Below, in pieces: positions 47,962-50,362 of a DNA stretch of 50,362 bases. Each line of letters begins with the position of its first letter. The stretch's first letter is position 1. The position numbers and the translations under genes are program-made. The DNA lies in contig JAUIFY010000009.1 of NCBI GenBank assembly GCA_030430245.1, forward strand, positions 1 through 50,362. The letters run 5' to 3'. Below the pieces are notes generated by a model. It saw only the letters and a program-made list of their open reading frames with translations, did not search any database and was not told where the DNA came from. Source of the stretch: a bacterium. Lineage in GTDB: Bacteria; Desulfobacterota; Binatia; UBA12015.

Positions 47962-48396
47962 CTACCTCTCTCGCTCCGCCGGCCCCGGCCGCAGGCGCTC
48001 GACCAGCTCGATCATGACCCCCTGGCTCGCGCCGTCCGGCGACGCGAACTGAACGCGCATGCCCTCCCCCTCGCGCGGCTCCGAATCGAGCGGACGGAGA
48101 CCGGCCGCGTGGAGACGCTTCATCGCTTCGGCGACGTCGTCCGTACGCAACCCGACGTGGTAGATCCCCGGTCCGCGGTGCGCCATGTGCCGGAGCTGCG
48201 TCTTCTCGACGGGGGCCTCGATCAGCTCCAGCTCGACGCCGTTCACGCAGACGTGCGCGAGGCGGATGCCGTGCTCGGGAACGTCTTCGGGCCCCACCAC
48301 GTCGAGGCCGACGACGTCGCGCCAGAACACCACGGCGGCGTCCATGTCCGCCACGTAGATGCCGACGTGATCGATCTGCGAGACCCGGCCCTTCAT
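47962..48396 (-). CDS. VOC-superfamily protein, methylmalonyl-CoA epimerase-like
   Basis: 144 residues from ATG 48396. ISQIDHVGIYVADMDAAVVFW-like N-terminus (VSQIDHVGIYVADMD), VNGVELELIEAP, GIYHVGLRTDDV and SQGVMIELVE place the four metal ligands (His, Glu, His, Glu) in the order of methylmalonyl-CoA epimerase. The fit to the epimerase subfamily is good but other VOC enzymes share it. With MaoC, acyl-CoA dehydrogenase and CoA-transferase genes elsewhere in the window it fits an acyl-CoA-degrading lifestyle. The next gene (DUF3604) begins 107 bases upstream on the same strand. Confidence 0.82.
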   Translation of the reverse strand: MKGRVSQIDHVGIYVADMDAAVVFWRDVVGLDVVGPEDVPEHGIRLAHVCVNGVELELIEAPVEKTQLRHMAHRGPGIYHVGLRTDDVAEAMKRLHAAGLRPLDSEPREGEGMRVQFASPDGASQGVMIELVERLRPGPAERER

Positions 48397-48503
48397 GGGC
48401 GAGCCATATCGCCGCCCGGCAGGCGAATCCAGACCTCCGCCGTCGCCGCCGGACCGGGCGACGGCCCCGCGACCCCCGGCCGCGACGCCACCTCCGATCT
48501 CGA

Positions 48504-50362
48504 CTACGCTCCCGGATCGGCCGGCGGGACCCAGATCGCGGAGGTCACGGCACGCTCCTGGATGCTCGTCGGCTCCGGCGCATCGACGCCCAGGGTCTTC
48601 GCCGCGTACGTGGTGTGCCGCGGCGTCGGGATCTCGATGGCGCGCGCGTAGTACAGCGCATCCTGCGCCGGATCGAACTCCGGATCCCGCCACAGCCCCG
48701 TCAGCTCGGCCGCACCGATCGAGTTGGCGTAGCTCGCGTCCTCCACGTCCACGGTGTTGCCCACCGCTACCAGCGCGCCACCAGCCGAAGCCGCCACGCG
48801 ATCGCCGGAAGCGGCCACGTCGAAGACCTTCTCGTGGCTCTCGCCGCTCGCATCGACCCAGGCTTTGATGATCTGGACCCGGTCGAGGTTCGCACCGATC
48901 GGATCCTTCAACGCCGACGCGATGAAGACCGGGGACGCGCCCGCTCCGCCCTCGAGCGTAGCGCCCATCGGCACGCCTCCCTCGTACGCGGCCTCGAGCC
49001 AATCGCGCTCGAGCAGGTCGGCCGGATACCCCCACCCCGCGAAGAAGCGGAGCTGGATGCGGGGGCCCGACGACGCGTACGTCTCCTTCCGCTGCATCGC
49101 CTCGAAGATCGAGTCGCGCGTGTTCTCCTCCGCCCACACGGCGACCAGCCCGGCGGCGCCGTAGGTCCGTATCGGGAGGCGCTCGAACGGTATGTAGAGC
49201 GCTTTCCCCAGCCGCTGAGCCGGTGTCCCGTCGAGGAGCGGCAGCTTTCCGTGATGGTTGTCCTCCTCTACCGAGGAGCTCGAGTTGTGGCTGTCGCTGC
49301 TCCCGATCACGCCGAAGCGATACGGATTGAAGTCCTCGCGGTGCGCCAGCTCCAACCCGGTGCGAAGAGCGTCTCGCGCATAGCTGCCGGCCGGCTCGCT
49401 CGGCGGCGCGGACGCGATCATGACGGTGTCCATCAGCTCGAAGTCGGCGAACTCGTCCTCGGGCGAGAGACTCGGATGGGTCTCCGAGGTTCCTTTGATC
49501 TGGAAGATCTCCACGAGTGGCTCGTTGCGCATGCGCGTTCTCGCATACTCGGGCGTCAGCGGCCGTCCGTCGAACGTCGTGGTGTCGAACATGCGCCCGT
49601 CGCTCGCGTTGGAGTTGTGGGGGATCGCGAGAACCTCCATTCCATGCGCGCGCTGCTCGTCGAGAGCGGCCCAGAGGTCTTCGGGGTTCTCGGAGTCCCG
49701 AGACGAGAACGGCTCGTCCGGAACGTCTCGAGACTTGTAGATCACGTTTCGATGGAGATTCCGATCACCGGGCATCGACGAGTACTCGTACGCGATGAAC
49801 GTGGTGAAGCGGCCCGGGTCGTCGTGCCGCTCGGCGGCGTCGATGATCTCCTGCCAGGCGGACCGGGACACGGCCTCCATGCCATCGACGCCGAAGGTCT
49901 CCTCCCGCGTATCGCGGCTTCCCATCTCCAAGAAGGCCGTCCGCAGGAAGATCCAGGTCGCACGAAGTCGGTCGCCGGACCCGATCGCCGCACGCAGCTC
50001 GGCGAGCTGCTCGTCATCGCCACCCGAGAGATGGCGCGGCACCCCCAGGAACTCGGCGTGGTCGGTCACGGCGCCGAAGTCCAGCGGGCGCTTCGCCCGG
50101 ATCGGATAGCCGAGCGCATGCTCGATCTCTCCGCCCTTCAGGAACGTATAGGCGTCGTCGGGCAGAGTGCGCGTTCCCATCGTGAAGGCGTCGTACGAGA
50201 GGCTCGTGTGCACGTGGAGAATCTCCTCTCCGAGCAATCGGACGCTCGTGTACCCGGCTCCGTCAACCTTGCGATTGGAGTTGCGCAACGACGTGAAACT
50301 ACTCGCCGTTGCCTGGTCGTCTGCATCGACCAGCAGAACTTCGCGCCCTTCTGCTGAGCGCA
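48504..50362 (-). CDS. DUF3604 protein fused in frame to a ParA-type ATPase fragment, partial
   Basis: From about position 50227 to the stop this is a typical DUF3604 protein: [57 protein letters not shown] and RRxxTYAxSGPRI-like segments, with metal-ligand His/Asp residues of a PHP-like phosphoesterase fold. A TTG at 50288 could serve as a start. Upstream of it, in the same frame and open to the window edge, reads [19 protein letters not shown], then SFTSLRNSN and [13 protein letters not shown]. That is the Walker A-distal region (VLLVDADDQ) of ParA/Soj ATPases. The signal peptide or lipobox usual in DUF3604 proteins is absent. The junction lies at [12 protein letters not shown]. The fusion may be a real recombination product or an assembly join. 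Confidence 0.75.

Follow-up and report, generated by a model that had tools for sequence, protein, structure and literature searches.

The window that we analyzed is one complete contig of 50,362 bp (C318, positions 1-50362), and it likely ends in a chimeric tail: a piece of a ParA-type partition ATPase gene (50220..50362, minus strand) stands in frame before a DUF3604 gene that lacks its N-terminus (48504..50219, minus strand). The contig belongs to a MAG (G000) of 445 contigs and 6.34 Mb, with a completeness of 87.5% and a contamination of 3.3%. The minus-strand frame 50360..48504 encodes 618 aa and is free of stop codons up to the contig edge. Its residues 1-46/47 are of the ParA type, and it then passes directly into DUF3604 at the motif LHVHT (from 50219). 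A sequence-only reading of this stretch had proposed that a ParA piece is fused in frame to a DUF3604 gene; the profile and homology searches bear this out, on the minus strand and with the switch at 50219/50220. The resemblance is not due to chance.

The ParA part consists of the last 143 bases of the contig and runs off its end. Since the contig stops there, the frame cannot be traced past 50362, and the position of the Walker A motif falls beyond the contig end. The fragment was delimited by a profile match and by tblastn. The first 46 residues match the NCBIfam profile NF041546 (ParA_partition) with E=2.6e-4 over profile positions 26-57 of 203, and tblastn of the piece against plasmid AAA/ParA ATPases gave a best E of 2e-8, with identities mostly of 50-60%; the majority of these alignments end at query residue 45-47. 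The resemblance to ParA is weak but specific. The piece corresponds approximately to residues 27-72 of a ParA of ~210 aa, i.e., about one fifth of the protein, and ends in LLGEEI. It contains the segment VLL[IV]DADDQ, which aligns with four homologues (L059, L060, L068, L069). These and a fifth one (L061) continue into a Walker B region of the form IIIDxGGRDTTSQRA. Here, DUF3604 begins before that point, and the Walker B region ([IV][IV]IDxGGRDTTSQRA) and the C-terminal half are absent. With neither Walker B nor the remaining fold present, we predict that the piece cannot work as an ATPase. Its best described relatives are the ParA of small plasmids of Leptolyngbya (sp. BL0902), Methylobacterium, and Deinococcus, which belong to NF041546, and also a protein from a Cytophagales MAG. 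The likeness to the small-plasmid proteins (~55-60% aa identity, as for the Cytophagales one) extends across the 46 residues present, whereas DUF3604 stands in place of Walker B and all that follows.

The DUF3604 part is nearly complete. The profile PF12228 matches residues 48-613 (E=6.5e-204, 679.1 bits for a cut-off of 20.4) over its positions 11-591 of 591. The gene is metal-hydrolase-like and unrelated to ParA, and our search of the literature on DUF3604 returned nothing beyond incidental mention. In homologues, LHVHT is preceded by a lipoprotein-like leader and by a conserved stretch (R-N/x-x-x-WGD or FGD). The leader is intact in L062-L067 and in L030-L032, whereas the copy in C318 lacks the leader (signal peptide/lipobox) as well as the stretch through WGD, and has the ParA tail in their place. 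The usual exported N-terminus is therefore gone, as had been noticed from the sequence. The presence of DUF3604 paralogues, suggested at the time as something to look for, was also confirmed: the MAG shows a large expansion of the family, with 23 matches that include about a dozen substantial paralogues. The C318 copy is closer to the homologue of Parahaliea maris (L062, 65.7% aa identity) than to any homologue of its own family of genomes (59%).

The position of the junction (ParA ...LLGEEI / LHVHTS... DUF3604, 50219..50220, minus strand) is uncertain by a few bases, and was approached from both sides. The closest DUF3604 relatives (L062, L064, L030, L031, L066) all share DNA homology only from base 143-144 inward, counted from the contig end. 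At the protein level, close DUF3604 matches start at residue 46-48 of the query in the 98 relatives, in the 148 class genomes, and in genome_contigs. Some more distant DUF3604 matches start earlier, and these probably reflect leader sequences aligned by chance rather than ParA. Conversely, nearly every ParA homologue ceases to match at residue 44-47, with one weak run to residue 51 (L068). No homologue spanning the junction was found in the family and class genomes, in plasmids, in viral contigs, or in genome_contigs. There are no long direct or inverted repeats bridging the junction, nor do its two sides visibly share a word of more than a few bases. The sequence GGAGATTCTCC at the junction forms a short palindrome, which we judged to be due to chance.

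We searched for the origin of the ParA tail within the MAG, among related genomes, and in mobile elements. There is no second copy of the piece in the MAG, even at E=10. A ParA of this kind is absent from the 13 genomes of the same family, and among the 98 relatives it occurs only in three class-level genomes, with identities of 55-59%. The 395 genomes of the phylum gave no further ParA match at E<=1e-8. When the ParA of a relative was used as a query for the parent ParA, only distant ParA were retrieved, and an exact-word search of viral contigs for the parent ParA or for the junction gave no match. At the DNA level, the tail resembles plasmid sequences only over 49 bp, in Deinococcus radiophilus, and there was no match in phages. 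No solved structure matches either the ParA half or the DUF3604 half by sequence. The tail is also atypical for the genome, since its GC content and its fourth-order composition score both lie near the 1st-2nd percentile of internal segments. A position near a contig end and a change of composition, as expected of a chimeric end, are both seen: the junction lies 143 bp from the end, and the GC content of the tail is 59% vs 69% for the MAG (precisely, 59.4% vs a mean of 68.8% over sampled contigs totaling ~1 Mb).

The chimeric nature of the ParA tail is argued most strongly by the other contig ends of the MAG, where short alien tails are a recurrent feature of the assembly. We surveyed the 176 ends of 99 usable contigs. 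The fraction of ends scoring below the 1st percentile of internal segments is 5.1%, and that below the 5th percentile is 13.6%. Atypical tails are thus enriched ~fivefold at contig ends, and the mean composition score is lowest in their last ~210 bp. We examined three of the most atypical ends in detail, all of them 3' ends. In C378 (L133), the match to the crcB loci of the congeners G001 and G002 (74% identity at the DNA level) sets in only 203-204 bp from the end, and unrelated sequence stands where G002 has the normal N-terminus of CrcB. In C209 (L157), a GDPD gene appears to be truncated: only the C-terminal ~33 residues of the domain are left (a weak Pfam match, E=0.07), next to an unrelated tail of ~107 bp. 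The end of C28 (L101) has a tail of ~130 bp and ~49% GC adjoining a transporter gene, on a contig of ~70% GC. The tails of C209 and C28 are no continuation of the genes beside them and look like further chimeric ends. None of the three tails matches plasmids, and that of C28 was found in 297 genomes of the phylum only as itself. A single pair of contigs (C19/C380, 170 bp, 99.4% identity) overlaps end to end among the 176 ends. It is possible that some of the odd ends have another cause, namely contigs that break at mobile elements.

Assemblers occasionally, if rarely, join sequences of two organisms, and such joins are recognized by missing paired-read support and by different coverage (PMC7111523). 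The end of C318 resembles these joins in the abrupt union of unrelated sequences of differing composition, here at a contig end. Such joins are normally proven by read support and coverage; the one in C318 is proposed from its sequence. A chimeric join, either physical or computational (a library chimera or a wrong path in the graph), would have extended C318 from inside the DUF3604 gene with ~143 bp of ParA sequence derived from a different replicon in the same metagenome, after which the contig would have stopped. In the organism itself, the DUF3604 gene would most likely continue upstream as an ordinary gene for an exported lipoprotein. We infer this route of chimera formation, as well as the absence of a genomic junction supported by reads. 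A physically chimeric molecule seems preferable to a repeat-driven misjoin because no longer shared word is evident at the break. Several observations count against a chimera, besides the rarity of joins between two organisms (PMC7111523). The frame is open across the junction, which is expected by chance in about 1 case in 3. There is no long shared word to account for a repeat-driven misjoin, which leaves a physical chimera or a genuine junction. The assembler chose the ParA path over the expected path upstream of DUF3604. Finally, DUF3604 lies where the gene order differs from that of congeners, so there is a real rearrangement nearby.

This rearrangement is visible in the comparison with G001 and G002. 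Between 40 and 48.4 kb of the window, synteny with G001:C88 and G002:C387 is kept at ~72-78% DNA identity; the last genes of this segment are those for radical SAM, acyltransferase-like, MaoC, and VOC proteins. The VOC/glyoxalase-fold gene (47962..48396, minus strand) is the last syntenic gene before DUF3604; it is 81% identical to that of both congeners, and its order relative to the MaoC, acyltransferase-like, and radical SAM genes is kept. The gene that adjoins it in G001 and G002 is TamB-like, a name we assign presumptively from its sequence, while in C318 the adjoining gene is DUF3604. The MAG has its own TamB orthologue on contig C364, with other neighbors (an aldehyde dehydrogenase/HIBADH-like pair). 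Since TamB abuts VOC in the congeners and sits on C364 here, gene order changes between the species at the DUF3604 gene. This speaks for a genuine junction, but the change lies 1.8 kb from the join with ParA. The breakpoint of gene order falls at 48396-48504 of the window.

These observations bear on the main alternative, namely that the junction is genuine. According to this reading, a plasmid or an integrative element bearing ParA, or a remnant of one, integrated into or recombined with the DUF3604 gene and both genes were truncated; the contig would have broken there because ParA is also present elsewhere in the sample, e.g., on a free element. The ParA is indeed of the small-plasmid type, the region just downstream is the rearrangement point described above, and the join lacks the long repeat that a misjoin through a shared word would need. 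However, the rest of the MAG contains neither an intact nor a second ParA of this kind, and none of the genes examined near the ParA end of C318 looks element-borne. Moreover, similar short alien tails cut unrelated genes on other contigs, and the edge of an element would leave them unexplained. Hence, we regard a real genomic junction as unlikely. The more specific proposition, that a plasmid-derived ParA recombined into DUF3604 reveals an unrecognized integrated or mobile element beside a rearrangement breakpoint of the lineage, is improbable too. Were the junction real, it would only show that an element insertion or a rearrangement of an ordinary kind had disrupted both genes.

A genuine fusion protein, e.g., a DUF3604 domain localized by a ParA domain, is suggested by the open frame, and we reject it as extremely improbable on its architecture and on the absence of homologues: the ParA part breaks off ahead of Walker B and of the C-terminal half of the fold, the relatives of DUF3604 have leaders for export, and no homologue with a ParA-DUF3604 architecture exists among relatives, genome_contigs, viral contigs, or plasmids, which makes a working fusion protein very unlikely. 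Among the explanations that the sequence-only reading had offered (the edge of an integrated element, a gene fusion, or a chimeric join of contigs), the chimeric join is the best supported, given that the alien tail is terminal, that genome and family lack any other ParA of this kind, and that other ends have similar tails, while the gene fusion is not supported.

The probable chimeric tail has consequences for the use of this genome. An automatic annotation would list an in-frame ParA-DUF3604 protein, probably a nonexistent one, and users should be warned that alien tails of ~100-200 bp are present at several contig ends of the MAG. We also observed other peculiarities of this assembly. The terminal ~200 bases of the 3' end of C20 (L091) are C/A-rich and of low complexity, unlike the adjoining sulfatase-like gene. 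Two further contigs, C218 (L160) and C242 (L168), consist entirely of N, over 2376 and 2200 bases, respectively.
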